64,000 nt of DNA from Brachypterus glaber. Lineage: Eukaryota > Arthropoda > Insecta > Coleoptera > Kateretidae. The position numbers and the translations under genes are program-made. Where the stretch lies: assembly GCA_958510825.1 (NCBI GenBank), contig OY294045.1, positions 93,308,988 to 93,372,987 of the forward strand, in the 5' to 3' direction. Below, one piece after another: positions 4,011-61,902 of the stretch (position 1 is the first letter of the stretch; each line of letters opens with the position of its first letter). The notes below the pieces were generated by a model. The model saw nothing but the letters and a program-made list of their open reading frames with translations. It did no database searches and was not told where the DNA came from.

Positions 4011-4290
4011 TAATTATAAACAAGCCGTGAAGATATGTAATGCTACACATTTCATTATAATTTATTCACACTAAATGGTATATTGCATTTTCACAAATAC
4101 TTAAAAAAAATATATTTTCAAAAAAAATAGATTTTTTTTTAAAGTTGTTTTTTGAAAAACGAAAGTAATTTATAACGATATTAGATTTCCTGCAAACTAA
4201 AGTTGCGCCCAGACTTTCATAAATTATGCAACACTCAGGTGTATAAATGGTTGCCTATTCAAGCAAATTCCCGTTTCATAATATTTTAAA
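4011..4290. repeat. Dispersed repeat, A/T-run rich
   Basis: The block AAGCCGTGAAGATATGTAAT followed by GCTACACATT and a run of A/T homopolymers recurs at 62571-62720 with about 85% visible identity. Family unknown; no coding capacity. Confidence 0.55.
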
Positions 4291-4358
4291 ATAATAATAA
4301 TAATAATAATAACTTTATTTTAAATAGGCAAGCCTAATATACACAAGTTATTAGTTAT
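4291..4358 (-). repeat. LINE 3'-end fragment and (AAT)n, duplicated around a Penelope insertion
   Basis: Read on the minus strand this ends GCTTGCCTATTTAAAATAAA then G(TTA)n, the form of a LINE 3' end with polyadenylation signal and tail. The same stretch recurs at 5622-5707 on the other side of the Penelope-like pair. It therefore looks like an unusually long target-site duplication of about 65-85 bp. Confidence 0.6.
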
Positions 4359-4487
4359 AAAGAACTTTCACTTTCGGGTTTAGACCGTGTTAATGGATTT
4401 TCACTTTCCGACGTTTCGTCTCTTACTACTAGAGACATCTTCAGGGATTAATCTGAAACTAAGTTTCGAATCAACTTGTGTCACTAT

Positions 4488-5164
4488 TTATGACGAGTTG
4501 TGGTTATTCACCCGTGACGAGGTTTTTCCTATCAAAGACTTCCATATTGCAGGTAAGTGGTAACCAGTGTCCCGATTGATATTGTTAGGATGCTTGATGA
4601 TTTCTATCGATTCCCGTATCTTCCTTGGCATTTTTCTGTTTTCTGTTAATATTTGTTTTGTTTCAGACAAATTGATTTTATGACCTGTTTCATGTACATG
4701 TTCGGCTACTGCCGATAAGGAAATTTGTTTCTTTCTTATATTGCGCTCATGCTCTTGAAGTCTTGTAGAAATTTTTCTCTTAGTTTCACCTATGTAAACC
4801 GTACCACAGGAGCAGGGTATTTTATATACGCCTTCTGAACTCAGGGGTATTTTGTCTTTTGTTGAAGTCAAACATTGACCTAATTTTTGGTTGGACCGAA
4901 ATATAGGCTTAATATTTGACTTCTTCAAAAGTTTACCTATTTTATCCGTGATACCGCTTACATAGGGAAGTATAACTTGTGTCTGTCTGTCATTGTCACT
5001 ATTGTCCTGTTGTTTGGGTCTGGGATTTCTGTATTTGTATATGATCTTATTAATGTCTTTTTTGGTATAACCGTTCATGGTCAAGGCTTTGGTTAGTTTA
5101 AGGAGTTCTGTGTCTAGGGAATTCTTGTCTGAAATCATGAAAGCCCTATGAACAAGTGAATTAA
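4488..5164 (-). pseudogene. Penelope-like ORF C-terminus with GIY-YIG endonuclease, 5'-truncated
   Basis: The frame is open from about 5164 (VVNSLVHRAFMISDK, the RT-thumb/linker region of Penelope ORFs) to a stop at 4488, about 225 residues. The GIY-YIG nuclease is evident as GVYKIPCSCGTVYIGETKRK, with downstream R...QEHERNI, the H-containing AEHVHETGHKI and a C-terminal IWKSLI. The CxC and H-x-x-x-H residues match the zinc-binding motif of animal Penelope GIY-YIG domains. The reverse transcriptase is missing. The apparent methionine at 5138 is internal, not a true start. Confidence 0.85.
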
Positions 5165-5181
5165 CTACCGAGCGTTTTTTA

Positions 5182-5488
5182 CATAGGTGAAACTAAGAGA
5201 AAAATTTCTACAAGACTTCAAGAGCATGAGCGCAATATAAGAAAGAAACAAATTTCCTTATCGGCAGTAGCCGAACATGTACATGAAACAGGTCATAAAA
5301 TCAATTTGTCTGAAACAAAACAAATGTTAACAGAAAACAGAAAAATGCCAAGGAAGATACGGGAATCGATAGAAATCATCAAGCATCCTAACAATATCAA
5401 TCGGGACACTGGTTACCACTTACCTGCAATATGGAAGTCTTTGATTGGAAAAACCTCGTCACGGGTGAACAACCACAACTCGTCATAA
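5182..5488 (+). pseudogene. Penelope-like GIY-YIG fragment, inverted partial copy
   Basis: The second half of the same nuclease (from IGETKRKISTRLQEHERNI onward) is repeated on the plus strand, nearly identical to the minus copy. One visible difference is KQM for KQI. It lacks the GVY half of the GIY-YIG motif and cannot be functional alone. Confidence 0.85.
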
Positions 5489-5621
5489 ATAGTGACACAA
5501 GTTGATTCGAAACTTAGTTTCAGATTAATCCCTGAAGATGTCTCTAGTAGTAAGAGACGAAACGTCGGAAAGTGAAAATCCATTAACACGGTCTAAACCC
5601 GAAAGTGAAAGTTCTTTAAAT

Positions 5622-5624
5622 AAA

Positions 5625-5660
<36 letters not shown>

Positions 5661-5707
5661 TTTATTTTAAATAGGCAAGCCTAATATACACACGTTATTA
5701 GTTATAA
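5622..5707 (-). repeat. (AAT)n and LINE 3' end, right duplicate
   Basis: Second copy of the 4291-4358 sequence, with a longer (AAT)n run. It continues into unassigned A+T-rich DNA to about 6070. Confidence 0.6.
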
Positions 5708-6154: not shown

Positions 6155-7329
6155 TTTATTCTGAATATTCAGTTACAAATGGAGGTGTATTTGCTGGATT
6201 AATTTTGAAAAAAAAATTAACAATGTAAATCTTCAAAAGTAATTTGAATAAATAATTAATAATAATTTGATGTTAATTTATTTTGAAACCGATATTATGA
6301 TAGTTGAAAAAAATAGTCATATGTAATACACCAACAGAGAGGTATATTCACTTCGTGAAAATTTCGGATATATCGAAAATAAACGGAACCTGGAGGTGTG
6401 TTTGCAGGACTATTTTTTGAAACAATTTTTTAACAATTTAAATCTTCAAAAGTAATTTGAATAAATAATTAATATTAATTTGATGTTAATTTATTTTGAC
6501 ACAATAAATTCATGTTTGAGATTTTTAATTTTTGAAATAAAAAGGATCTAAATTTGTTAAATTTTATTAATATTGAATAAAAATAAGCTAATAAGACATA
6601 AAAATTGCCTTAATTGTGCATTTTAGTTGATATTTTCTTATAATATTACATTATCAAGCTTGTTACATCAAAGAACTAGAAAACTGGTATATGTTCGATT
6701 TTCTGGTATATATTCGAGACGAAAATATCCCGTCGTTATGGTAATGCCTTGTTTTTGTTGGTTGAAACCGATATTATTTTAATTATTCGCATGCATTTTC
6801 TGTAATAAACTTTGAAAAAACTGACAATTAATTGTCAAATTAATCTAACCTATTTCTTAAAATCTTACTTAAACTATAAAATAGTTAGTAAAATTGACAT
6901 TTTAGCATATTTAAATCTTGCGTTTTTTGTGGGTCCAACTTTACACCGAGAGAGAGAGGTATATTTCGATGTATCGAAAATATACGGAACCTGGAGGTGT
7001 ATTTGCAGGACTATTTTTTGAAACAATTTTTTACAATTTAAATCTTCAAAATTAATTTCAATAAATAATTAACAATTAATTTGATGTTAATTTATTTTGA
7101 CACAATAAATTCATGTTTGACATTTCTAACTTTTGTAATAAAAAAGATCTAAATTCGTAAAATTTTATTAATATTGAATAAAAATAAGCTAATAAGACAT
7201 AAAAATTGCCTTAATTTTGCGTTTTAGTTGATATTTTGTTATACATTATCAAGCTTGTTATGTTAAAGAACTAGAAAACTAGTATATATTCGTATAATAC
7301 ACCTACGTGTTGCAAAATTTATTTAAAAG

Positions 7330-7912
7330 TCTGTATCTCCAAAACGTTATATTCTAGCAAAAACTGTATATAAGATTTTTTGTAGGGCTTAAAAATAGCT
7401 TTTTTATGATATGGTTTTTTGAAATCGGTTAATAAATGAGTTATGCCAAAAAAACATATTACTTTAATATCTCGAAAACAATGTATTTTAGGAAAAAAAT
7501 ATTTATCATTTTTTGAACAATTTAAAAATATCTTTTGTATAAGTGCTAAATTAATAAAATACAATAATAATTAACTTAATTATAAACAAAAAACGCTTAA
7601 AATAGTAGTTTTACCCCATTCTTACCCCCTTACCCCCAATCGTTTACCCCTAAAATCTAATCAGCTCTTCGAAATATTATAAGAAACAATATGCAAAAAA
7701 CCGCTTGTCGATAGCTTTTTTAGAAATAGAGTTATCGAGTTTACACCCAGACAGACAGACAGAGAGACGGACGGACGCAATTTTTTTTCACTGATTTCAA
7801 CTCAAAAAGGTCTAAAACGTTGAGAAATGTGAAAAAATATGGTCATAGATTTTGACTTTTCGGCGAAGATTTCAATATATCGGCACTGTTAGTAGCACTA
7901 AGTGCCGATGTA
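7330..7912 (+). mobile_element. CATCGGCACT-family non-autonomous DNA element, left end missing
   Basis: Aligns by eye with the complete copies at 24409 and 28202. Shared landmarks are the CAGACAGACAGACAGAGAGA tract, TTTTGACTTTTCGGCGAAG, and the terminal GCACTAAGTGCCGATGTAA. The left TIR was lost before the tandem duplication. Confidence 0.7.
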
Positions 7913-8969
7913 AAAATGTACTATTTCCTACGATCCTCTATGAAAATTACATTTAGCACATGCTTTTGTTTTAGAAAACACCTTATATCACACTAGTCCG
8001 TCTTTAAACTCCAAACGAAAATAAACGGAACCTGGAGGTGTGTTTGCAGGACTATTTTTTGAAACAATTTTTTAACAATTTAAATCTTCAAAAGTAATTT
8101 GAATAAATAATTAATATTAATTTGATGTTAATTTATTTTGACACAATAAATTCATGTTTGAGATTTTTAATTTTTGAAATAAAAAGGATCTAAATTTGTT
8201 AAATTTTATTAATATTGAATAAAAATAAGCTAATAAGACATAAAAATTGCCTTAATTGTGCATTTTAGTTGATATTTTCTTATAATATTACATTATCAAG
8301 CTTGTTACATCAAAGAACTAGAAAACTGGTATATATTCGATTTTCTGGTATATATTCGAGACGAAAATATCCCGTCGTTATGGTAATGCCTTGTTTTTGT
8401 TGGTTGAAACCGATATTATTTTAATTATTCGCATGCATTTTCTGTAATAAACTTTGAAAAAACTGACAATTAATTGTCAAATTAATCTAACCTATTTCTT
8501 AAAATCTTACTTAAACTATAAAATAGTTAGTAAAATTGACATTTTAGCATATTTAAATCTTGCGTTTTTTGTGGGTCCAACTTTACACCGAGAGAGAGAG
8601 GTATATTTCGATGTATCGAAAATATACGGAACCTGGAGGTGTATTTGCAGGACTATTTTTTGAAACAATTTTTTAACAATTTAAATCTTCAAAAGTAATT
8701 TGAATAAATAATTAACAATTAATTTGATGTTAATTTATTTTGACACAATAAATTCATGTTTGACATTTCTAATTTTTTTAATAAAAAAGATCTAAATTCG
8801 TAAAATTTTATTAATATTGAATAAAAATAAGCTAATAAGACATAAAAATTGCCTTAATTTTGCGTTTTAGTTGATATTTTGTTATACATTATCAAGCTTG
8901 TTATGTTAAAGAACTAGAAAACTAGTATATATTAGTATAATACACCTACGTGTTGCAAAATTTATTTAA

Positions 8970-9555
8970 AAGTCTGTATCTCCAAAACGTTATATTCTAG
9001 CAAAAACTGTATATAAGATTTTTTGTAGGGCTTAAAAATAGCTTTTTTATGATATGTTTTTTTGAAATCGGTTAATAAATGAGTTATGCCAAAAAAACAT
9101 ATTACTTTAATATCTCGAAAACAATGTATTTTAGGAAAAAAATATTTATCATTTTTTGAACAATTTAAAAATATCTTTTGTATAAGTGCTAAATTAATAA
9201 AATACAATAATAATTAACTTAATTATAACCAAAAAACGCTTAAAATAGTAGTTTTACCCCATTCTTACCCCCTTACCCCCAATCGTTTACCCCTAAAATC
9301 TAATCAGTTCTTCGAAATATTATAAGAAACAATATGCAAAAAACCGCTTGTCCATAGCTTTTTTAGAAATAGAGTTATCGAGTTTACACCCAGACAGACA
9401 GACAGAGAGACAGACGGACGCAATTTTTTTTCACTGATTTCAACTCAGAAAGGTCTAAAACGTTGAGAAATGTGAAAAAATATGGTCATAGATTTTGACT
9501 TTTCGGCGAAGATTTCAATATATCGGCACTGTTAGTAGCACTAAGTGCCGATGTA
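8970..9555 (+). mobile_element. CATCGGCACT-family element, duplicate copy
   Basis: Second copy carried by the 1.64-kb duplication, with the same left deletion. Confidence 0.7.
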
Positions 9556-9656
9556 ACAATGTACTATTTCCTACGATCCTCTATGAAAATTACATTTAGC
9601 ACATTCTTTTGTTCTTTAGAAAACACCTTATATCACACTAGTCCGTCTTTAAACTC

Positions 9657-10461: not shown

Positions 10462-10736
10462 TTACATGTTCAAACAAAAAAAAAAGTATTTTCTTTAACA
10501 AACTTATTTTAAAATTTTAAAACCACTCGTATAATTAAAAAAAAACCCTTATAAAAATAACGTCGTATTTACTTTACACTTTAAATATCCATTTTAACGT
10601 TAAATATTTAATTAAAAACTGTATTTATTTCTATAAAGTTTATGCAATATTTATTTTTCAAAAATTTTAAATTATAACTATAAATTGGGCGTACGTGGGA
10701 CAATTTAAATTAAAAGTAATCATTCACTAAGAATAA

Positions 10737-11154
10737 CACAGGTTTACAAAAAAAAAGACAGCACTATTTGACCGGACCATGGTATTCCTAAGTATTTTGG
10801 CGCCCTGAATCAGATCCCGGGGTCAGTTTTGCCCCATCACGTCAGGAAAACGAGATTTCAAGGTCATTTGAGGTCAAAATGGTGATTTTTTGGGAGCGGC
10901 GGGACAACATCTCAAGCGACCTGTTAACTTCACGGGTAACTGTGTAGGTCTTGAATACTTTCTGAACGTTGAGATGTTGTCCCGGGGCCGCTCCCAAAAA
11001 ATCACCATTTTGACCTCCAAATGACCTTGAAATCTCGTTTTCCTGACGTGAAATGGGGCAAAACTGACCCCGGGATCTGATTCAGGGCGCCAAAATATCT
11101 AGGAATACCATGGTCCGGTCAAATAGTCCTGACTTTTTTTTTTGTAAACCTGTG
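10737..11154. mobile_element. 418-bp foldback MITE, TAA TSD (PIF/Harbinger-like)
   Basis: Nearly the whole element is an inverted repeat with arms of about 175 bp. They begin CACAGGTTTACAAAAAAAAA and include GGCGCCCTGAATCAGATCCC. Both flanks are TAA (10734-10736, 11155-11157). Its base composition is clearly more G+C-rich than the surroundings. No coding capacity. Confidence 0.8.
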
Positions 11155-11513
11155 TAATTAAAGCCTTGCGTGTAAAGAACGTATCACATATCGATAACCA
11201 GAGGCCAGGAAATTGCGAGCTATTAGTCATCTTTTGTCATGTTTTTTAAATTTTGGCGTTGCTCTGTTCTACAGGGGGGACTGCCGTATTCCGTATTGCC
11301 GTGGCTTCTAATCAGTGTTGGATTGATGCGACGCTCATGAATGAAAAACAGCTCGCTAGTCCCCGGGGTATGTTCATAACAATAAAAATGTATGAACGGC
11401 ATATTAAAAAATTTCCGGCTTTTTAGTTTTTCTCTAATACCTAATATAAAAATAAAATAATCATTAGATTAGACTAGATTAGCTAAATACTTGCTTGAAT
11501 TTCATAATATCTA

Positions 11514-14499: not shown

Positions 14500-15215
14500 G
14501 TAATTTTAATACTAAATTTTATTTGTAAATACATATTTGTTATTTATATCGCTACCATTGGTATTTAATACTTTACTTGTGATATTAAATACTGCAATGT
14601 GTGTATTATATACAAAATGTTGTCACTAACATAGAGACCGTGCTGATACATTTGAATCCCCACGCAACATGTGTTTCTTAATACCAGCATGTTATAGCAA
14701 AAATTACTGTAAGATTTGGTAAATCATATCATACTTATAGTATAGTATACTTTGAGTTGTTGTTAAGTTGTATTACTGATCTAGTTTAAAGTATGTTACA
14801 GTATTCTGAAAAATTAACAACCGATAAATAATACCAACATTTTGATTGGTAATAATATAAAGATTGCAACCACACACAATTACACACTGATAAAATAATC
14901 GATCCTTTTTTTACTTTTCTTTGTATTATTACTAATCAAAATTTTGGTATTATTTACCGATTGTTATTTTACTAAATACTGTAACATACTTTAAACTAGA
15001 TCAATAACACAACAACTACAACTTAAAGTATACCAAACTATAACTGTGATATAATTTACCAAATGTTACAGTATTAATAAACACAAGTTGCGTGGGGAAC
15101 CAAATGTACCAGCACAGTCTATATGTTAGTATGAAAACATTTTGTATACAATACACACATTGCAGTATTTAATATCCCAAGTAAAGTATTAAATACCAAT
15201 GGTGGCGATATAAAT
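14500..15215. mobile_element. 0.67-kb palindromic (foldback) element
   Basis: Arms of about 320 bp are inverted copies, e.g. ATCGCTACCATTGGTATTTA near 14549 and its complement near 15205, closing on a 100-bp centre at about 14880. The left arm alone recurs at 21955-22315, next to the MITE array. Confidence 0.8.
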
Positions 15216-15244
15216 AAAAAATGTGTATTTATTTTTTATATATT

Positions 15245-34780: not shown

Positions 34781-36079
34781 ATGTCGGATAAAAAAATTGT
34801 TATCATGTCGGATAAAAAAATTAGGACCAGGTCAACAACTAAAAAAGAACTAACGGATTTATCTTCTCCTGACACGCCGAACCGTAAATATTTTAGTATA
34901 ATCTCCAACGAGGAAAATGACGAAGGTACATGGGATACAAGAAGAATAATAACTGATTTACGTAATAAACTGGCTTCAGCAAACAACAAAATTGACACTC
35001 TAAATGCGGAAATAGTTAAATTAGGAAACGATAAAGTGACTATGCAAATACAACTACGTGAAAAGGAAAAGATTATAAAAACCATCATTAAAACTAACTC
35101 TAAAACTTTTAATAATGCAACTACACAATATGAAATAAACTGCAATAGTCAATCTGATGGTAATACCAACCTGTTCCCCAAAGTGTATGTGAATGTGAGC
35201 TCGCAAACATCGCTCAGAAAATTCACCAAATCAAAACAAACGCAAGCAAACAGTACAACAAATACCATTTCTACGCAAACTAATAAAGAAAATACAACTA
35301 ACACCATTTCTATGCAAACTAATAAAGGAAATCAAATACCCATAATAAAAATTTCATCGGATAAAAGTGAGCCAAATCTGAACCTTAAAAAGTCATATGT
35401 CGACTTAACTAAAACAAAGAGTAAAAAAATACTTATATTAACTGATGAAGTTGGACGTGGCTTAAACAAAGTATTATACAACAAGCTAAGAAACGAATAT
35501 AAAATTCAGACAGTTATTAAACCAGGCGCAAAATTATATCAAGTGACAGAAAATGTTGAACAATTAACTAAAAACTTTAATCTAGACGATCATTTAATTA
35601 TATTTGCGGGTTCCAATGACTTTGATGATTCAAAATTTATCTCTCCACTTAAAAAACTCTGTGAAACAATCAAGCAAATTACGAACACGAATATTTTAAT
35701 AGTTTTAATTCCCTATACTGAAAGTAAAAAATCAAACGATTATATCTTTAGGTATAATCAAAATCTCTCAAACTTTGTTTTCAAAATAAATAAATTTAGT
35801 GAATCCAATATAAGTTTTGTAGATGTTAATAACAGTTATGGTAAACGAAACAATAGCGATTTGGCTGATAAATTAAAAATTAATATTTTAAGAAAAAATG
35901 TAGTGTCCAATAAAAACTTAATATTCATAACACCTAATAATGATAGCAACATACTTATCGAGGATACTATAATTAACATAACGGACACTGATCAAAATTC
36001 AACTATTGTTAAAACCTCATCAGAAAATACCTCATCTATTTTTTTAGAACTCTCAACCAACCAGATAGAACTCAATTAA
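34781..36079 (+). CDS. LINE ORF1: coiled coil plus SGNH/esterase-like domain
   Basis: 432 residues. The first ATG is at 34781, with a second in frame at 34805 in a near-repeat (SDKKI). Residues about 50-105 (RIITDLRNKLASANNKIDTL...) have the heptad pattern of a coiled coil. A polar, Asn/Thr-rich linker with two TNTISxQTNK repeats follows. Residues about 214-390 resemble the SGNH hydrolase-like domain of CR1-group ORF1 proteins: ILILTDEVGRGL, then LIIFAGSNDF, the block with the conserved Asn. The nucleophile position normally GDS is TDE here, so esterase activity is doubtful. The likely role is RNA-binding/chaperone in the retrotransposition particle, by family analogy. Its end overlaps ORF2. 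Confidence 0.8.
   Translation: MSDKKIVIMSDKKIRTRSTTKKELTDLSSPDTPNRKYFSIISNEENDEGTWDTRRIITDLRNKLASANNKIDTLNAEIVKLGNDKVTMQIQLREKEKIIKTIIKTNSKTFNNATTQYEINCNSQSDGNTNLFPKVYVNVSSQTSLRKFTKSKQTQANSTTNTISTQTNKENTTNTISMQTNKGNQIPIIKISSDKSEPNLNLKKSYVDLTKTKSKKILILTDEVGRGLNKVLYNKLRNEYKIQTVIKPGAKLYQVTENVEQLTKNFNLDDHLIIFAGSNDFDDSKFISPLKKLCETIKQITNTNILIVLIPYTESKKSNDYIFRYNQNLSNFVFKINKFSESNISFVDVNNSYGKRNNSDLADKLKINILRKNVVSNKNLIFITPNNDSNILIEDTIINITDTDQNSTIVKTSSENTSSIFLELSTNQIELN
36040..36046 (+). promoter_or_regulatory. Candidate -1 ribosomal frameshift heptamer
   Basis: T-TTT-TTA in the ORF1 frame (codons ATT-TTT-TTA at 36038-36046) is a canonical X-XXY-YYZ slippery sequence. Slipping back one base enters the ORF2 frame (next codon AGA), which is open from 36013. 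Confidence 0.6.
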
Positions 36080-38943
36080 ATGCCCAAATTAACTTACCTT
36101 CCGAAAATAATTTTACTCTTCTTTTTGCAAACATACAAGGTCTGAGAAATTATGAAAATGAACTTGAGGCTCTTCTGTCTTGCAATTCGATGGATATGGT
36201 TTGCATAGCCGAACATTGGTTTAAAGAACATGAAATTGATCATCTAGGAATACATAATTTTTACACTGCTTCACACTTTTGTCGGAAAAATTATCTTCGT
36301 GGAGGAGTTATGCAGCTTGTGAGGGAAAATCTAAAATCTAATACGGTACCATCTATTCAGTTATTATCTAAAGAATTTAACTGTGAAGTAACAGCTGCTA
36401 AAATACCTTGTTTTAATTTAATTGTTTTAACAGTTTACAGGACCCTAGAACCAAATGTGAAGGTGGATAACAAAAACCAAAAAGCCAATAAAGGTAATAC
36501 CAAAGCGAAACAATTTAAAAAGTTTCTTGAAATAATCTCTAGTGCTTTTGATAAAATTAATTTTAATGAATTTAATGTAATTATCACCGGTGATTTTAAT
36601 GTCCAATTTGGTAGTGCTTTTAATGGTTTTAAAAATGATACGGAGGCTTCAAAACTATGTGACCTTTTCAAAAGTTATAATCTGCGTAAGTTAGTGAATT
36701 TTCCTACAAGATATAAAAAAACAATAGACAATATTTTTACTAACATAAAGTTTTCTCTGGAGGTGAAACAGGTGAATACTTTAATATCAGATCACTTTGG
36801 ATTACTTCTCAAAATTAAATTTCCCAAATATCTAAAAGATAAAAAGGTAACCAATGTCTACAGGCCTATTACTCTTAAAGGTAAAATAATTTTTTACGAT
36901 ATAGTAAGTAAAATAGATTGGTCTTTTTGTAAAAATCTAAACGTAGAGTTAGCATTTGATCAGTTTATATCTGACATTGTTGCTGCTATGAACATAGCCT
37001 TTCCTGAGAAGAATGTTAAAAATAATATTTCTAAAATAAATAAAATAAGATGGTTTACACCGGAACTATGGAAAATGAGAGAAACTATAGGTCTTATTAT
37101 AGATTCTTTAAAACTTAATCCTAGTGATAACCTAAAACAGTTGTTAAAAGAACAAAAAGATAAATATAAAGTCATGCTTAATAAAGCTAAAAAACTGGCA
37201 AATGATAACTTCATTAAAGGTCGCTGCAATAATCCTAAGGCTATGTGGGATGTAATAAACAAAAATAGAAAAAATACTAGGAAGGAATATAGTTCTCAAA
37301 TCAAACCAGATGTTTTTAATGATTTCTTTAGTAAAGTAGCTCCAACAATTGTTGAATCCTTACCCATTTCCAATATAGATGCTATTGATTTATTGTCTAG
37401 GAGTAATGTACCCCTTGCGCATTCGTTTAAATTTACTGAAGTGTCATTTAATACTATTAGAGATATCATAAATAGTTTGAAAAATAGTAAGAGCAAGCAT
37501 GTGTACGGTTTAAGCGTCCCATTGATTAAAGGTATTATAGATTTAATAGTAATTCCTTTGACAATTTTAATTAATCGTTGTATATCCGAAAACAATTTTC
37601 CAAAATGTCTTAAAATTGCGTGTGTTGTACCAATTTTCAAAAAAGGCAACAAAGAAGACCCAAATAACTACAGACCCATTTCCCTACTTCCAATAATCTC
37701 TAAAATATTTGAAAAAGTATTGCATAAACAAATTACAACATACTTCGAAAGTAACCAATTATTTAATGAACATCAGTATGGTTTCAGGAATGGGTACTCC
37801 ACCACTCAGGCAATCCTTGCTCTTGCTGAAGAGCTTCACGACTGTCTGGATAAAGGAGAATATTGCTTTCTTACGTTACTGGACCTGACGAAAGCCTTTG
37901 ACTGTATTGACCCTGAAATTCTTCTACGTAAAGTAAAATTTTATAATTTTGAGGACTCAAGTTGTCAACTTCTTATGTCGTATTTATCGGATAGGTTTCA
38001 GTATGTCCTTATTAATAACTTAAGATCTGAGACCATTAAATTAACCCTTGGTGTACCTCAAGGCTCCATTTTGGGCCCTTTATTATTTCTTATTTTTATT
38101 AACGATTTGCCGTTTTTTTTAATGGTTCTCGCGGATATACTGAAATTGTTTGCTGATGATACGACATATGGTTCCAGAAGTAAATCACTTGCTGATGCCG
38201 TGGAGAAAGGAAGACAAATTCAGTTAAGGGTTGTCCAATGGTTCAGTAGTAATAAGCTTAGCTTAAATGTCGATAAAACGCAAAATATGTTAATTACTCT
38301 TCGTCAAATAAATTGCATTGTACCTCCCGTTTGTGATGACGCCAAATTTTTAGGTATCCACCTGGATAAAAAACTTCTATGGGATGCGCATGGGGATACT
38401 CTTGCCAATAAATTAGCTTCCACTTCATACCTGCTCCGTAGTCTATCAAACAACGTTTCCACGAATACCCTTAGAACTGCCTACTTTGCTTTATTCCAGT
38501 CAGTTTTGGTATATGGTCTTTTAGCTTGGGGGCACTCATGTATTATGGGTCGCATTTTTAAATTACAGAGACGGGCAGTTAGAATTCTAGCTGGTATTGG
38601 GTATAGAGAGGACTGCAAAACTTACTTTATATCCCTTAATATTCTCACCTTACCTTGTTTGTATATATTGGACTGTCTGTTTTACTTAAAATGTAACCCT
38701 ATGAAATACAACACTCATAATAGCAATACAAGGTCAAATCAAAATATATGTCCCGCATATACTAGGTTAAATAGAAATCAGACTGGCATTAAATACCATG
38801 CTTCAAAGTTTTTCAATGTTCTGCCTCTTGAAGTGAGACAATTGGAAAAAGTTTGTTTTAAAAAAACCATTAAAAATTACTTGGCATCTAAAGCATTTTA
38901 TAGTTTTGAAGACTTTTTATCCAATAATTTTAACGATATGTAA
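36046..38943 (+). CDS. LINE ORF2: AP endonuclease and reverse transcriptase
   Basis: About 965 residues if read from the frameshift site. The first ATG in frame (36190) would cut off the first endonuclease strand (LLFANIQGL with the catalytic-site Asn), so entry upstream is likely. Endonuclease motifs: AEHW, VYR, ITGDFN, TIDNIFTN and ISDHFG, all intact. RT motifs: PIFKKGNKEDPNNYRPISLL, QYGFRNGYST, LDLTKAFDCID, GVPQGSILGPLLF and the catalytic LFADDT, then KFLGIHLDKKLLWD. The C-terminus ends KAFYSFEDFL. It nicks DNA and primes reverse transcription at the nick in the nucleus. No RNase H or zinc finger was seen. The clade within CR1/Jockey is not decided. Confidence 0.9.
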   Translation, partial: RTLNQPDRTQLNAQINLPSENNFTLLFANIQGLRNYENELEALLSCNSMDMVCIAEHWFKEHEIDHLGIHNFYTASHFCRKNYLRGGVMQLVRENLKSNTVPSIQLLSKEFNCEVTAAKIPCFNLIVLTVYRTLEPNVKVDNKNQKANKGNTKAKQFKKFLEIISSAFDKINFNEFNVIITGDFNVQFGSAFNGFKNDTEASKLCDLFKSYNLRKLVNFPTRYKKTIDNIFTNIKFSLEVKQVNTLISDHFGLLLKIKFPKYLKDKKVTNVYRPITLKGKIIFYDIVSKIDWSFCKNLNVELAFDQFISDIVAAMNIAFPEKNVKNNISKINKIRWFTPELWKMRETIGLIIDSLKLNPSDNLKQLLKEQKDKYKVMLNKAKKLANDNFIKGRCNNPKAMWDVINKNRKNTRKEYSSQIKPDVFNDFFSKVAPTIVESLPISNIDAIDLLSRSNVPLAHSFKFTEVSFNTIRDIINSLKNSKSKHVYGLSVPLIKGIIDLIVIPLTILINRCISENNFPKCLKIACVVPIFKKGNKEDPNNYRPISLLPIISKIFEKVLHKQITTYFESNQLFNEHQYGFRNGYSTTQAILALAEELHDCLDKGEYCFLTLLDLTKAFDCIDPEILLRKVKFYNFEDSSCQLLMSYLSDRFQYVLINNLRSETIKLTLGVPQGSILGPLLFLIFINDLPFFLMVLADILKLFADDTTYGSRSKSLADAVEKGRQIQLRVVQWFSSNKLSLNVDKTQNMLITLRQINCIVPPVCDDAKFLGIHLDKKLLWDAHGDTLANKLASTSYLLRSLSNNVSTNTLRTAYFALFQSVLVYGLLAWGHSCIMGRIFKLQRRAVRILAGIGYREDCKTYFISLNILTLPCLYILDCLFYLKCNPMKYNTHNSNTRSNQNICPAYTRLNRNQTGIKYHASKFFNVLPLEVRQLEKVCFKKTIKNYLASKAFYSFEDFLSNNFNDM

Positions 38944-41200: not shown

Positions 41201-42322
41201 TAAAATAATTAAAAAAGAACGAAAAACTGAATAAAAGTTAACTTCTAACGTTTCGGGATCTAATCTGATCCCGTTTTCAAAGAAAATTATTAGCTTTGAA
41301 AGAATTTGTGCAATATTTGGCATTATCAATCAAAATATGACAAATGTCAAAATATGTCATTTCGAGGTAATTGAAACAAAGACACCTGTAACAATAAAAA
41401 AGGTGTAGAGAAATTAATTTGGAAAAGGCGTTTTTGTTGAAAACGTGTAGAGAAGTTAATTTGGAAAAAACTTTTATTGAAAAGAGGGCAAAGTTAAGTT
41501 ACCGCGTAATACTTCATCATTAAGTATTGGTGTCCAAATATTAGATAAAGATGAAGATCATTCGCTAATACAGTTATCTCTGCATAATTTTATGAAAATT
41601 GATTCTTTTAGCTTTCGTATTTCTGTGATAGGCTCTTTAGTTAAAATTTTTGTATTATCAAATAAAAAATGGTGACAATTATTAAATGAGTGATCAACTA
41701 ATTTTGAAGAAAATATTTTTCTTTTTTGACAGTTAACTTTATGTTCTGTCAGACGGACATAATAATACATAATACTATAAATATTTTTTTTTAATTATAT
41801 TAAAAACGTTTCGGCACCTGGTTTTGGGCCATCAGCAGTTAACTAAAAATAAACAATACAATTAAAAAGTAAATAATAAGCAAAAACATTTAGGTAATAA
41901 ATTAAAAATAATGTAAAAATTATATAAATATTATGCGTAAATCTAAATAAGATTTAGTTACTTGCAAAATAGAATTAGGAAACAAATGGTAAAAATATAT
42001 ATGCAAATAGTTTTTATTCTGCCTATTCCCAAGAAAAACAATTAATTACTAATATGTTTTTCTCAAAAAGAAAAATATTAATTTTATTATGTATGTTTTT
42101 ATATTTTAACACACCATTTTTGTGACATGTCTTAAGGTTAGTGCAATTTAAATCTATCATTAATTTTTAATTTTTACATAACCTATAACCTAATGATATA
42201 TTTTCGTTCATTATGTAAACTTTTTAGCCTCCGAAGATGAAGTTATTTGTATAGAAAACTTCGAAATGCATCAGGCAACAATCTAAAATATTTTTTTCCA
42301 ACAATAAACATTGGCATTGACA
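41201..42322. repeat. Cluster of degenerate Penelope-type ends
   Basis: Three hairpin motifs with GAAAC-like flanks occur. Minus strand near 41260: GGGATC-AGATTA-GATCCC-GAAACG. Minus strand near 41830: CTGATGG...GCC-GAAACG. Plus strand 42227-42276: CCGAAGA...AACTTC-GAAAT. A 22-bp piece (AAAAACTATTTGTATATATT) is repeated inverted at about 40886 and 42000. No coding sequence is left. Confidence 0.5.
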
Positions 42323-42413
42323 ATATACAATTTAGTAAGGACAGAAATTTTTAATTTTAAACAAAATTATAAAAATATTAATTTATTATTCCATCAATCT
42401 ATTTTCCAATCAT

Positions 42414-42488
42414 CGTACAGAGTGATATTGGTAGACTGACAGTTTCGGGCTGCTGGCCCTCTTCAGTACCAAGAGTCAACTCTGCACG
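42414..42488 (-). ncRNA. Type I hammerhead ribozyme, copy A
   Basis: Minus-strand order: stem I strand CGTGCAGAGT, loop TGACTC, TTGGTA; core CTGAAGA; stem II GGGC-CAGCA-GCCC; core GAA; stem III AC-TGTCA-GT; cleavage base C; stem I strand TACCAA, loop TATC, ACTCTGTACG. All stems pair; the 45-nt core is identical to copies B, C and D. Predicted cleavage is after GUC, in the complement of 42434-42436. Confidence 0.85.
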
Positions 42489-42755
42489 CTGATTAAGAAA
42501 TTAATAAATAAATATTTTTATAATTTTGTTTAAAATTAAAAATTTCTGTCCTTACTAATTTTACGTCTAACCACCCGTTAGTGGTACTATGTGCTTGAGA
42601 CACACAAGTCTTCAACTTGCTACCATTCAAAGTCTCCAGATTAGGAGAGGTATGAGTAGTTGTCTACATCTAGAAATAGATGGCGCACAAGTCTACATTA
42701 ATCTAATGGCTATATTCCTTTTGCGAGTAAAGTCTAAAAACGTTTTCTTAATCGG

Positions 42756-42830
42756 CGTGCAGAGTTGACTCTTGGTACTGAAGAGGGCCAGCAGCCCGAA
42801 ACTGTCAGTCTACCAATATCACTCTGTACG
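42756..42830 (+). ncRNA. Type I hammerhead ribozyme, copy B
   Basis: Core CTGAAGA at 42778-42784; stem II 42785-42797; GAAAC 42798-42802; stem III loop 42803-42807; GTC 42808-42810 with predicted cleavage before 42811. Proximal stem I TTGGTA/TACCAA (6 bp) and distal stem I CGTGCAGAGT/ACTCTGTACG (10 bp, one G-U). These are separated by a 6/4-nt internal loop, where natural hammerheads make loop-loop contacts. Confidence 0.88.
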
Positions 42831-43107
42831 ATGATTAGAAAATAGATTGATGGAATAATAAATTAATATTTTTATAATTTTGTTTAAAATTAAAAATTTC
42901 TGTCCTTACTAATTTTACGTCTAACCACCCGTTAGTGGTACTATGTGCTTGAGACACACAAGTCTTCAACTTGCTACCATTCAAAGTCTCCAGATTAGGA
43001 GAGGTATGAGTAGTTGTCTACATCTAGAAATAGATGGCGCACAAGTCTTTTTATCTAATGGCTATATTCCTTTTGCGAGTAAAGTCTAAAAACGTTTTCT
43101 TAATCAG

Positions 43108-43182
43108 CGTGCAGAGTTGACTCTTGGTACTGAAGAGGGCCAGCAGCCCGAAACTGTCAGTCTACCAATATCACTCTGTACG
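43108..43182 (+). ncRNA. Type I hammerhead ribozyme, copy C
   Basis: Identical 45-nt core (43124-43168) and complete distal stem I. The LINE insertion starts immediately after the last paired base. Confidence 0.87.
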
Positions 43183-43836
43183 ATAGATAGATAGATAGAT
43201 AGATAGATATCTTTATTGTCCTTGGCTATTTTACAATAGATAGACTCGTCATTAAAATATAATATTGAGACTTAAAACTATATCACAAACATATTATTCG
43301 TATATAAAAAAAAAAAATAAAATAAAATATTTACATGCATACATAAATAAAAACACAAAAAAAAAAAATAAACGAACGATCTTATGAAAGCGATATATTT
43401 ATAACTCAAACCAGGGTAGACATATAGTTTTCGAACTCTTCGAAAGAATAAAACGTTTGTGAGAGCAATAATTTTTTAATATTTTTTTTAAAAATGTTAA
43501 TAGATGTGGCTTCTTTAATGGAATTGGGTAAAATATTGAAATAGTAGTATCCTGCATAGGCAGGAGATTTTTTAAACATAGATAATCTAAATTTATTGCA
43601 ACGAATTAGGTCTCGTTGTCGAGTGGGGTAATTATGTAGATAACCATTTGTTACAAAAAAATTACGATTATTAAAAACATATACCAATAACTTAAATAAA
43701 TAAATAGACGTCACAGTTAAAATAGAGTTATTTTTAAAATGATCACGACACGTATGGTTAAAGTCAAGGTTATAAATGACTCTTATGATTCGTTTTTGAA
43801 CTACAAGAACTCTATTAATATCACTAGAATGACCCC
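43183..43836 (-). pseudogene. Truncated LINE inserted in the retrozyme
   Basis: Minus-strand ORF2 tail: SWGHSSDINRVLVVQKRIIR near 43835, then about 100 residues ending SQTFYSFEEFENY at 43406. This is followed by a 3' UTR and an AATAAAGATA-(TCTA)n tail at 43184-43210. The retrozyme sequence resumes at 43837. A third LINE family in the window; no catalytic motifs remain. Confidence 0.8.
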
Positions 43837-43977
43837 ATGATTGGAAAATAGATTGATGGAATAATAAATATACAATTTATTTATTTTAATTACTAATAGT
43901 TACTTAATCAATAATTAATTGACTAATTCGAGAATTTTTTATTTTGTAAATAAGTAGATAATAAATAATCTTGTGCT

Positions 43978-44500
43978 TTAGATTTTAAGCTTTCACGGCC
44001 ATTAAGATATAAAGAACTTTCACTTTCGGGTTTAGACCGTGTTAATGGATTTTCACTTTCCGACGTTTCGTCTCTTACTACTAGAGACATCTTCAGGGAT
44101 TAATCTGAAACTAAGTTTCGAATCAACTTGTGTCACTATTTATGACGAGTTGTGGTTATTCACCCGTGACGAGGTTTTTTCCTATCAAAGACTTCCATAT
44201 TGCAGGTAAGTGGTAACCAGTGTCCCGATTGATATTGTTAGGATGCTTGATGATTTCTATCGATTCCCGTATCTTCCTTGGCATTTTTCTGTTTTTTGTT
44301 AATATTTGTTTTGTTTCAGACAAATTGATTTTATGACTTGTTTCATGTACATGTTCGGCTACTGCCGATAAATAGTGACACAAGTTGATTCGAAACTTAG
44401 TTTCAGATTAATCCCTGAAGATGTCTCTAGTAGTAAGAGACGAAACGTCGGAAAGTGAAAATCCATTAACACGGTCTAAACCCGAAAGTGAAAGTTCTTT
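43978..44500. mobile_element. Penelope-like element, two truncated copies head to head
   Basis: The minus copy (44383 to about 44011) and plus copy (about 44368 to 44500) are near-identical to the ends of the 4359-5617 element. They are flanked by ATAATCTTGTGCT at 43965-43977 and 44501-44513, a probable 13-bp duplication. The minus copy keeps only the last 75 residues (AEHVHETSHKINLSETKQ...), with one T inserted near its stop. Confidence 0.75.
44156..44383 (-). pseudogene. Penelope-like GIY-YIG C-terminal remnant
   Basis: 75 residues from LSAVAEHVHETSHKINL to IWKSLIGKN. The terminal residues differ from the 4488 copy because of a single-base insertion in the T run at 44175. Confidence 0.75.
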
Positions 44501-45028
44501 ATAATCTTGTGCTGTTGGAATAATAAATATTATTTAAACAAATAAACGTTAAACAAGAAATTGAACCTGTTTTTGGCTTAAAAGTGCAAATTCCTAGACT
44601 ATGTATGCAAATACTGCAGAATATAAAGACTGTAGTAAACCGCTTATATCTGGCGAATAACCTCAAAATATATAATTACCAGCCCGAAAAACAAGACGAT
44701 TGTTCCCGCTGAATAAACAAATTAAATTGTTTTCTTCCTTCTTTCAGGATATTATTCACGTTTAAATTTCCCGTCGCGACGCATAGCACTTTAACGCCAT
44801 CAAGGAAATGGTCTGACAAAATATTATTTAAATTTAAATATATCTCTTTGATTTAACAGTAGATTTTTTTAGTTTAATTCAAAAATATATCTTCATTTCG
44901 GAATATATTTTTAATTAGTAAATTAACCATAGAATTTTGGTTTAATTATTTAATAACTAAATATTAATTTAACCAATAAATGAACGTACAGTTGGACCCA
45001 CAATTCTGCCCTCTGAGAGTAAAGGGCA

Positions 45029-53880: not shown

Positions 53881-54110
53881 CAAACGCAAATAGTTTTTTG
53901 ATACAAAAATTGTACAAAAATAATTGATTTTAATTTTTTTTTTGTTGGGGTCCAAACAAAACGTGTGAAGTTGCGAGGAGTATAATAAGAAAACGAGACG
54001 ATAACTGAATTAGAGTCTAATCTTTTCGAACTTGTTTGTCGTTTTCACTTTCTTCCATAAAGTCGTGTAACTGAGTAGATTTAGTCCCGCGTTAAAAATG
54101 TTTCTTTATT

Positions 54111-54463
54111 GTAAGGACTTTTTAATTTTAAACAAAATTATAAAAATATTAATTTATTATTCCATCAATCTATTTTCTAATCATCGTACAGAGTGATATT
54201 GGTAGACTGACAGTTTCGGGCTGCTGGCCCTCTTCAGTACCAAGAGTCAACTCTGCACGCTGATTAAGAAAACGTTTTTAGACTTTACTCGCAAAAGGAA
54301 TATAGCCATTAGATTGATGTGGACTTGTGCGCCATCTATTTCTAGATGTAGACAACTACTCATACCTCTCCTAATCTGGAGACTTTGAATGGTAGCAACT
54401 GTCAGTCTACCAATATCACTCTGTACGATGATTAGAAAATAGATTGATGGAATAATAAATTAA
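54111..54463. mobile_element. Retrozyme, second insertion (353 bp), 10-bp TSD
   Basis: Flanked by TTTCTTTATT at 54101-54110 and 54464-54473. A minus-strand unit (54111 to about 54397) joins head to head with a 66-bp plus-strand end. Outer ends match those of the 42335 insertion: GTAAGGAC on the left and GATGGAATAATAAA on the right. Confidence 0.8.
54185..54259 (-). ncRNA. Type I hammerhead ribozyme, copy D
   Basis: Core (54199-54243) identical to copies A-C, with complete distal stem I. A 3' fragment (ACTGTCAGTCTACCAA) also lies at about 54397 on the plus strand. Confidence 0.87.
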
Positions 54464-54586
54464 TTTCTTTATTGTATTTTGGTAAATACATTTCGCATTT
54501 TAGCACAGAGTTACCTAACTGATTTTTGAAGGACCTAATTGAAGAGGTAACTACACTGCAAAAAATGGCGGTAAAATTAAAGAATA

Positions 54587-55319: not shown

Positions 55320-56014
55320 CACACGCGCAACTTATTTATATTTATTTTTAACTTATTCTTGTACTACGTACTATGTATTTATATTATGTGTATAATTACC
55401 AATGACAATAAAGATATTGTATTGTATTGTATTGTATTGTATTGTATTGTATTGTATTGTATTGTATTGTATTGTATTGTATTGTATTGTATTGTATTGT
55501 ATTGTATTGTATTGTATTGTATTGTATTGTATTGTATTGTATTGTATTGTATTGTATTGTATTGTATTGTATTGTATTGTATTGTATTGTATTGTATTGT
55601 ATTGTATTGTATTGTATTGTATTGTATTGAATTGTATTGTATTGTATTGTATTGTATTGTATTGTATTGTATTGTATTGTATTGTATTGTATTGTATTGT
55701 ATTGTATTGTATTGTATTGTATTGTATTGTATTGTATTGTATTGTATTGTATTGTATTGTATTGTATTGTATTGTATTGTATTGTATTGTATTGTATTGT
55801 ATTGTATTGTATTGTATTGTATTGTATTGTATTGTATTGTATTGTATTGTATTGTATTGTATTGTATTGTATTGTATTGTATTGTATTGTATTGTATTGT
55901 ATTGTATTGTATTGTATTGTATTGTATTGTATTGTATTGTATTGTATTGTATTGTATTGTATTGTATTGTATTGTATTGTATTGTATTGTATTGTATTGT
56001 ATTGTATTGTATTG
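55320..56014 (+). repeat. LINE 3' end with giant (TTGTA)n array
   Basis: 55320-55420 ends CAATAAAGATATTGTA, a LINE-type 3' end. The pentamer then repeats about 118 times to 56014, with a single T-to-A change at 55630. Long open frames through it on both strands are artefacts of the pentamer. Confidence 0.9.
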
Positions 56015-57489
56015 TAAAGTCTGATCTGGGGCACCACCAAGTCTTTGTAATTAGAAGGTCTGAACACCATGGCACAGGTTTTGATGACAAAGAGTAATGT
56101 TAAGATCAAATTATATGATTAATATGGTTTAAGGTTGATTTACCCCATTATTAACACTTTTTTAAATAAAATACCGTCGTTTCCCCACCACGTTGGCTTG
56201 TGCTTCCAAAGATCTAAGCACACAGTACAGAAAAAGTTTTGCAGTGGATAATGCCGCACTAGCACTCGGACCTGTGATACCACCCGGGGGCACCGAAAGG
56301 GAGCAGCAAGGTAGCTGTCAGGTCTGTTGACCGAGCTCACTTTAGGGACTTTCAAGCAACGGGGATCTGTACTAAGGCTGCAAGCGAAAATTATCCTTAA
56401 GCAGTTTGGCGCCGGTCCAAGTGCACTGGCAGCCATTAAACTTAAGGATCAAAGCCGCTCACTTAGCCAAAAAAGCCGACAAAACAAGGTTCGGATTCCT
56501 CGCTAAACTGTAAGTCCCGGGGTAAAACAACGAAAATTCTCGTTAGAGTAGAAAAACTAGTAACACAGGGGTAGGCAAAGAGGACTAATATGCTCTAGTT
56601 GGAAAAAGTACACATAAACAATTTTATAAAAAACTTGATAATATTCCCATTTAAAATATGTTAGGGGTAGGCAAAAAGGACCAATATGGTCTAGTTGCCA
56701 GGCTTGACCTCTCCACCATTACTACTACTACTACTAAGACTAAACTCACTAAGAATTTAATAATTCTAACATTTCAGTCTTTGGATGTTATTTGACGCGA
56801 ATGGACCGTTTCGGCGGACGTGACTTGCTATCACTTATACAGGGTTATTCCTTGAAATGGTACACCCCCCGTAAATTTTAAACGAAATGAGATATAAGTT
56901 TTAAATTTGGAATAAAACACAATAAAAATTATCATTTGCCATATTTTTCGATTTTTTAACCGGTAAGTTGATGCCAGGTGAACAAAATTTCGAACTGCAC
57001 CCTGGGTCTTGTGATAAATATATAGAATATTTATAGAATTTAAGAATTAAGTACACATAAACAATGTTATAAAAAACTTGATAATATTCCCATTATTCCA
57101 TTTAAAATATGTTCATAAAAACATTAATAAATATTAATGTGTCTGGGACAGCACATTCTAATGGAATCTATAAAAATTATCCATAAAATATATAGGTATC
57201 AAACTTTTTGCCTCCCGCAGAGGAATCATTTTTAATAAAGATAGGGCAAAAATCATTGGTGTAGCATCAGGTGCGAACCAAAGGAACATCGTTGAGGGGA
57301 TTATCAAAATTTCCCAACTAATAAACAGTCTAGACCCTTTAAAAATGTATATTTTAAAGAATTACCTGTGTTTAATTTTGACATTTGAAATTTTTATAAA
57401 CTTCAAATGACTTTAGTTAAAATGAATGCTATGTGTAATCGTTTGGATAAATGAGTGTGCATAGTTGTCATTTCATTCAAATGTGCACT
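56015..57489. other. Unassigned; G+C-rich segment 56160-56560
   Basis: The G+C-rich part (for example GATACCACCCGGGGGCACCG, GTTTGGCGCCGGTCCAAGTG) contrasts with its surroundings. It could be a 5' piece of a retroelement, but no motif is decisive. 56575-57120 contains two partial direct repeats (GTACACATAAACAATTTTAT, GATAATATTCCCATTTAAAA). Confidence 0.4.
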
Positions 57490-60591: not shown

Positions 60592-61902
60592 TAGTGTTGC
60601 CGCCTAAGGCCTATCGTCTTGCTATCGTCTCGTTATCGTTGGACAGAACGATAGCGAGAGGTGGAAAAATATCGTCTCGTTGTAACGATAACGAGAGGCC
60701 TCTCGCCCGTAACGAGACGCGAGAGCGATAACTATCGTACAGTCAGAGACAGTCGAATGTTGAAGCCACCTAAAATTAGATAAAAATATTTGACACAAAC
60801 GTCATTATTTAATTTTTGAATTTAATCATTTTTAAAATGCAAATATATTCTTTAATATGCATTATGCATCATACATTAGCACATTATACAAGGCTTTTAT
60901 CTTTAAAAATCATATTGCAGGCAGGAACCGCTTTAACATTGTCCTTTTTTTATAGCAGATACAAAAATATGATCTCCTGGCAGATGCACTAACTACCTAA
61001 CTAAGACTATAGTAAGTACGGTAGTATTTGACTAATACGAGGGGTAATTTAAAAGAAGACTAAATTCCAGATCTGGTGTGTGTAGGATTTGAGTGCTAAA
61101 CATTAATTTTAACATTGTTTATATATTTTGCTTTCCCATGTTTACTTTCTTATAAAGAAAGTATTATCATAGAAAACAAATTAAACATTTTTTTACCCAA
61201 ATCATCTTATGTTTTCCTGAAAGGTCGAGAAAAATCAAAATAATCAAAAAAATATGTTTGTCGGTCTGTCTTAAAACTTAAGAAAGCTTTGAGCTAGAGA
61301 TTTAAAATTTGGGATGCATATGTAATTTTATATTATGTTTTCCTTTTTCTTTATGAAAACATGGGAAAGCAAAATATATAAACACTGTTAAAATTGATGT
61401 TTAGCACTCAAATCCTACAAACACCAGATCTGAAATTTTTGCCTTCTTTAAAATTACCCCTCGTATTAGTCAAATACTACCGTACTTACTATAGTCCTAG
61501 TTAGGTACTTAGTGCATATGCAAGGAGTTCATGTTTTTGTATCTGTTATAAAAATAGGACAATGTTGAAGAGGTTCCTGCCTTGGATACGATTTTAAAAG
61601 ATAAAAGCCTTTTATTATGTGCTAATGTATGATGCATAATTCCTATTAAAGAATATATTTGCATTATTAAATTCAAAAATTAAATAATGACGTTTGTGTC
61701 AAATTCCTTTAACTAATATTAGATGGCTGAAATATTCAACTTTTACGCTGGAACGATAAGTATCGTTATCGCGAGAGGTAGGCGATAACGAGAGGCCTCT
61801 CTTTATCGTTTGTGCGAGACGATAATTTTTGAACTATCGTATCGTAGTTGCGATACGAGAGGTATTTATTGGCGATAACTATCGCTTTAGGCGGCAACAC
61901 TA
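60592..61902. mobile_element. 1.31-kb palindromic hAT element, 8-bp TSD
   Basis: TIRs TAGTGTTGCCGCCTAA / complement, flanked by AACAGAAT at 60584-60591 and 61903-61910. Both arms (about 530 bp) are inverted copies. The outer parts carry repeated ATCGTCTCGTTATCG / CGATAACGAGAGGCCTCTCG blocks. The centre is a GGGAAAGC-type MITE. No transposase. Confidence 0.85.
61126..61376. mobile_element. GGGAAAGC-type MITE at the palindrome centre
   Basis: Ends TTTTGCTTTCCCATG and CATGGGAAAGCAAAA. The interior has GTCGGTCTGTC and AAGAAAGCTTTGAGCTAGAG, the core also seen at 52330 and 59390. Confidence 0.65.

Follow-up and report, generated by a model that had tools for sequence, protein, structure and literature searches.

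Retrozyme insertions of the beetle Brachypterus glaber bear scars of the Penelope-like element type

Retrozyme insertions in the window

The window is a 64,000-nucleotide stretch of contig OY294045.1 of Brachypterus glaber (positions 93,308,988 to 93,372,987) and contains two insertions, R1 and R2, of a short non-coding repeat that carries a hammerhead ribozyme. The R1/R2 family is an animal retrozyme without long terminal repeats (non-LTR) and is a further member of an already known class. A preliminary description of R1, made from the letters alone, is confirmed in its observation and supported in its interpretation. Cleanly bounded copies of this retrozyme bear insertion scars of the type left by Penelope-like elements (PLEs), which occur in the same genome.

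R1 (42335-43866) has two arms, one inverted and one direct; the direct arm spans about two units. It lies between two copies of AATATACAATTTA, its 13-bp target duplication (42322-42334 and 43867-43879). The duplication noted earlier is thus real, but is 13 bp rather than 12 bp long. Random pairs of window positions have at least 13 bp in common in 120 of 20,000 trials, which is the chance level for a duplication of this length. The 352-bp tandem unit reported earlier is found at a measured spacing of 352-354 bp. All three complete type I hammerheads with an identical 45-nt core are present as described, but one of them sits on the minus strand in the inverted arm. That arm, the fixed ends, the insert related to long interspersed nuclear elements (LINEs), the second copy R2, and the PLEs had escaped the preliminary description.

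42322..42334, no strand: R1 target duplication, left copy, 13 bp
42335..42500, minus: inverted arm of R1, whose outer end lies 99 nt past the ribozyme cut (site A)
42428..42472, minus: R1 hammerhead, cut after 42434 in minus-strand reading
42501..43182, plus: R1 direct arm, about two units, up to the LINE-like insert
42772..42816, plus: R1 hammerhead, cut 42810/42811
43124..43168, plus: R1 hammerhead, cut 43162/43163
43183..43836, minus: LINE-like insert, later than R1, with (TATC)n as its tail; limits are approximate, and the edges share a word of no more than 3 bp
43837..43866, plus: remainder of the direct arm of R1, with its outer end ~49-54 nt past the cut (site B)
43867..43879, no strand: R1 target duplication, right copy, 13 bp
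54101..54113, no strand: R2 target duplication, left copy, 13 bp
54114..54463, minus: R2, second retrozyme insertion, head to head, ends 96 and 56 nt past the cut
54199..54243, minus: R2 hammerhead, fourth identical core
54464..54476, no strand: R2 target duplication, right copy, 13 bp

The last R1 unit is split by the LINE-like fragment, which has an open frame and matches the LINE at 36190-38943 with 73% identity across 60 nt. This fragment holds the sole open reading frame (ORF) of at least 100 amino acids inside 42335-43866, and the retrozyme unit is without a long frame. The testable features published for animal retrozymes are found here (PMC7229834). They are a type I hammerhead, tandem repeats of 150-450 bp, low GC content (35.5% in the unit, 30.2% in the window), large target duplications, dispersed copies, and coexistence with PLEs.

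Hammerhead ribozyme

The type I hammerhead is complete in the unit, and its 45-nt core is the same in all R1 copies and in R2. Stem I pairs UUGGUA with UACCAA and, across an internal loop, has an outer helix as well. The core reads CUGAAGA..GAA, and stem II is GGGC/GCCC. Stem III is short, as first described, but its 2 bp can be extended to a 3-bp ACU/AGU helix with a GUC loop; the predicted cut follows AGUC. Structure prediction contains both the stem I internal loop and loop II. A full descriptor (core, stem I of at least 5 bp, stem II of at least 3, stem III of at least 2) has four matches in the window and none in 200 dinucleotide shuffles. Hammerhead patterns in viral contigs and genome contigs gave 21 loci, and 0/21 satisfy this descriptor.

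The Rfam scores and the free fold count against a working ribozyme. Rfam returns no match at gathering score in the whole window, and over 42250-43950 a hammerhead is absent at E<=10. In the 111 nt of 42740-42850, the top of three matches is RAGATH-1-hammerhead RF03152 in the right register, at 17.2 bits and E 0.66. The covariance-model check proposed earlier therefore yields a match in register, but one below the 56.3 gathering score. The free fold of the ribozyme segment pairs part of the core and is more stable than the active form (-28.3 versus -20.2 kcal/mol). Folded as a circle, the 352-nt unit reaches -87.4 and is more stable than 100/100 shuffles (mean -66.0, standard deviation 4.6, lowest -77.1).

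Conservation was read from 112 ribozyme passes at 58 loci. Pairing is kept in 632/651 cells of inner stem I, 938/982 of outer stem I, 421/440 of stem II, and 321/330 of stem III. Letters that deviate are rarer in the ribozyme and start region (3.4-3.7% of cells) than at positions 101-300 (5.3%). The compensatory stem changes anticipated in the preliminary description are nearly absent: a single double change (C-G to T-A, stem II) occurs in the 112 passes, because the retrozyme copies are too alike. The ribozyme is thus mildly conserved, and real covariation is lacking.

These repeats could also be dead and satellite-like, with a decayed hammerhead that no longer works, and be spread by recombination. 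The missing Rfam match at gathering score suits this reading, as do the 20/112 passes with a deviating core position. It is nonetheless highly improbable, because dispersed copies are flanked by perfect 11-14 bp duplications and 92/112 passes retain the full set of 12 core positions.

Insertion ends across the genome

A search of the 648-Mb assembly with the retrozyme unit gave at least 96 match rows (40 scored of 149 candidates), and a second query gave at least 41 (40 scored of 45). Copies are undercounted because of this partial scoring. The genome search proposed in the preliminary description thus yields many dispersed copies that have target duplications. Fifty-eight stretches were taken; four second-query places were left out, L062 was dropped as a near-duplicate of L061, and R1 and R2 were added. 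Offsets of insertion ends are counted from the ribozyme cut.

The mapped insertions form 65 groups, of which 39 are head-to-head inverted and 26 have a single arm. Their ends cluster at two places: site A, 95-102 nt past the cut (typically ~97), and site B, 49-59 nt past the cut (typically ~51). Every head-to-head group with an 11-14 bp duplication has one A end and one B end (17/17). Under free choice at each end, 17 mixed pairs out of 17 have a probability of 2 to the minus 17. Mispaired flanks, used as a control, share at least 11 bp in 36/4160 pairs. By BLAST ends, the 39 head-to-head groups comprise 23 AB, 9 Bx, 3 Ax, 3 xx, and 1 BB. The BB group, L040, is interrupted by an inserted PLE, and its true outer ends are A and B. 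The outer end of the 26 single-arm groups is A in 12, B in 12, and elsewhere in 2. L037 is not counted as bounded, which leaves 17 groups rather than 18, as its 13-bp word lies inside the element and it has a single arm. L033 and L040 are kept apart; their 12-bp duplication is present only across inner foreign sequence.

Most arm junctions have 0-8 shared nt or short filler, and therefore fit two complementary DNAs (cDNAs) joined by repair. Two other accounts of the inner ends were set aside. A stop of synthesis at its own start, giving the R1 direct arm exactly two units, is not general, as inner ends are spread. Run-off at the ribozyme cut, suggested by four arms with an inner end at offset 1, was dropped after base-by-base reading: the L049 end derives from the stem I palindrome, and those of L031, L047, and L068 either fall short of the cut by a few nt or are ambiguous.

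L083, L084, and L085 are short head-to-head pieces that resemble one another; their outer ends lie at ~71 and ~319, and they perhaps represent a derived element with other ends.

Alternatively, a LINE may mobilize the retrozyme by ordinary target-primed reverse transcription, with inversions arising by twin priming. LINEs occur in the window, and repeats of Nematostella with 15-bp duplications were called LINE-like in 2016 (PMC4918200), so large duplications suit LINEs too. This route is improbable, as both ends are fixed internal starts, one of each, in 17/17 groups. Moreover, the two LINE copies checked have simple-repeat tails and edge words of just 3 and 4 bp.

Penelope-like elements

Two PLE insertions, P1 and P2, lie in the window beside the retrozyme.

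43965..43977, no strand: P2 target duplication, left copy, 13 bp
43978..44500, no strand: P2, PLE insertion, two inverted arms with a left-only tail, ends 84 and 51 nt past the cut
44062-44096, minus, and 44415-44449, plus: P2 minimal hammerheads
44501..44513, no strand: P2 target duplication, right copy, 13 bp
4353..5622, no strand: P1, PLE fragment with inverted arms, limits approximate
4410-4444, minus, and 5532-5566, plus: P1 hammerheads
4488..5138, minus: P1 open frame, 216 amino acids, predicted GIY-YIG nuclease fold

Foldseek alone returns no PDB match for the P1 frame at E<=0.001. Two further PLE insertions in the fetched stretches, L040 and L063, have 13-bp duplications, inverted arms, and a one-sided tail; of a fifth piece, L079, a single end is visible. 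The PLE in L040 (1846-2402) sits inside a retrozyme, and its 13-bp duplication, ATAATAAATTAAT, is retrozyme sequence adjoining site B. The retrozyme's insertion rule is followed by three of the four PLE copies with both ends visible (P2, L040, and L063, not P1). Random breakpoint pairs on a 352-nt circle match the PLE offsets equally well in 0.65% of draws, with limits set post hoc. The retrozyme itself, with no frame in its unit, encodes neither the reverse transcriptase (RT) nor the GIY-YIG nuclease by which PLEs are recognized, and for this reason it is not filed as a PLE despite its PLE-like insertion.

The same scars are therefore found on bounded retrozymes and on PLEs of one genome, which supports the PLE machinery as the mobilizer. 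This support comes from the anatomy of the insertions and goes beyond coexistence.

Other results weigh against it. A duplication of at least 11 bp is absent in 22 of the 39 head-to-head groups (7 AB, 8 Bx, 3 Ax, 3 xx, and 1 BB). The far site differs, at 95-102 nt in the retrozyme and 84 nt in P2. P1 is without a tail, and its flanks hold a 56-bp repeat. No PLE reverse transcriptase and no intact PLE was found in a search short of genome-wide, and the window copies are truncated. The sequences after the cut show no similarity between retrozyme and PLE, as 785 and 873 of 1000 shuffles are as good. Finally, the duplications of rotifer PLEs are 8-10 bp (PMC3846280).

The P1 repeat is an exact, AAT-rich direct repeat at 4290-4345 and 5637-5692, and is either a repeat that was there before P1 or an extremely long duplication. 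A 12-mer of retrozyme site B, GGAATAATAAAT, recurs at 44517-44528, just outside the right duplication of P2; the chance mean is 0.10 per window. Compared with shuffles, the fold of the start region is no more stable for the retrozyme (z 0.31) and weakly so for the PLE (z -1.15).

Template of insertion

The 17 bounded insertions have 34 arms, of which 27 run through the ribozyme cut and 14 are longer than one unit. A linear monomer released by the cut is therefore not what is usually copied. Neighboring units of an arm differ little at six common sites (3/27, 1/28, 2/31, 3/31, 2/34, and 6/37, versus 0.25-0.56 between loci). The two arms of one insertion mostly agree, with 82/1005 comparisons differing versus 0.156 between loci. 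Such uniformity within arms fits repeated copying of one small circle, or a uniform array.

A PLE may also copy an uncut multimeric transcript, or RNAs linked by template jumps, with no circle and with a minor part for self-cleavage. A multimer also explains the arms that cross the cut and those longer than one unit. In addition, the C/T site Y in AAGTCTACATYAATC is mixed within 8/16 multi-unit arms, and 2/22 arms show mixtures at no fewer than two of the other six sites. Ribozyme mutants of the Anolis PLE leave insertion in vitro unaffected (PMC11167929). The low difference within arms speaks for a circle instead, though a uniform array gives the same result. The multimer is a serious candidate, if the less probable one.

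The loci with a mixed C/T site are L031, L044, L045, L046, L047, L051, L059, and L065; as to the cause, RNA modification, editing, or a hot spot can be guessed at.

Proposed mechanism

The retrozyme family probably owes its mobility to the target-primed machinery of a GIY-YIG PLE of the same genome. Retrozyme copies would first be transcribed, for R1 perhaps from a host-gene intron as the preliminary description supposes. The hammerhead would then cut after its AGUC motif, which is present in the unit, and monomers of ~352 nt would be closed into circles. A PLE protein would cut the target with a stagger of ~12-13 nt, as seen in the duplications. Both target strands would be primed on retrozyme RNA, one at each of the sites ~51 and ~97 nt past the cut where the insertions end. 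The two cDNAs would be joined head to head through the short shared letters found at the junctions. The product would be an insertion with inverted arms and a one-sided tail of ~45 nt.

The proposed priming agrees with the published biochemistry of PLEs. In Anolis, the PLE protein cleaves and extends the two strands of its target, and reverse transcription starts at two adjacent internal sites; the genomic PLE tail is the stretch between them (PMC11167929). Rotifer Penelopes have target duplications; their terminal parts occur in both direct and inverted orientation, and a 31-bp tail is optional (PMC3846280). Applied to retrozyme RNA, the two-start, two-strand biochemistry of Anolis would give inverted arms, termini ~45 nt apart, and a staggered-cut duplication.

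A broader reading is held with moderate confidence: animal retrozymes may be obligate riders of PLEs. The hammerhead cut and two RT starts (at ~50 and 85-100 nt) would be a module common to both elements. As this module is shared without sequence similarity, the PLE protein may read structure or the ribozyme itself. Use of the near start on one target strand and the far start on the other would explain why the PLE tail is one-sided and why both elements take the head-to-head form.

Other features of the window

The LINE at 34781-38943 has two frames. ORF2 is an endonuclease-reverse transcriptase, and ORF1 has a sub-threshold match to GDSL esterase (18.5 bits, cut-off 32.9). An adjacent pair of 1.64-kb copies with 98.96% identity lies at 6374-9656. 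The (TATTG)n array at 55415-56016 contains ~120 copies with 99% matches. Long self-complementary stretches are found at 60648-61845, 14526-15231, and 10732-11159.

Comparison with known systems

The enzyme that moves animal retrozymes is unsettled, and PLEs have so far been suspected. They were named 'a strong candidate' on the basis of coexistence, common type I hammerheads, and tandem occurrence (PMC7229834), and a later curation guide states that retrozymes 'may rely on PLEs' (PMC8969392). The new part is the insertion mode. The scars give a quantitative rule, namely duplications of 12-13 bp and, in each insertion, one end at ~51 nt and the other at ~97 nt. Such a rule is open to testing on the genome of any animal, as well as in vitro using purified PLE protein. 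No description of a two-ended retrozyme signature was found in the literature searched, with supplements and most subscription papers outside its reach.

The animal non-LTR retrozymes of Cervera and de la Pena (2020, PMC7229834) are alike in their type I hammerhead, short tandem repeats, low GC content, large target duplications, dispersed copies, and coexistence with PLEs. Head-to-head arms and two fixed ends are the rule in the bounded copies of Brachypterus, and are undescribed in the available part of that paper. Circles are demonstrated for those retrozymes, whereas those of the Brachypterus retrozyme are hypothetical.

Hammerhead repeats of newt and axolotl (PMC7229834) share a 330-350 bp repeat and a short stem III, which reads 3 bp with a triloop in Brachypterus. 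Dimeric action is conceivable in our own reading, since the stem III segment ACUGUCAGU is close to a palindrome.

PLEs of the Penelope/Poseidon clade (PMC11167929, PMC3846280) are alike in their inverted terminal parts, one-sided tail, target duplication, and a hammerhead upstream of the start sites. Their tail is 30-40 bp, compared with ~45 nt in the retrozyme. The retrozyme differs further in that it encodes no protein, its start region is not similar in sequence to theirs, and its hammerhead combines a complete stem III with a long stem I. The insertion scars suggest why both retrozymes and PLEs keep a hammerhead just upstream of the start sites.
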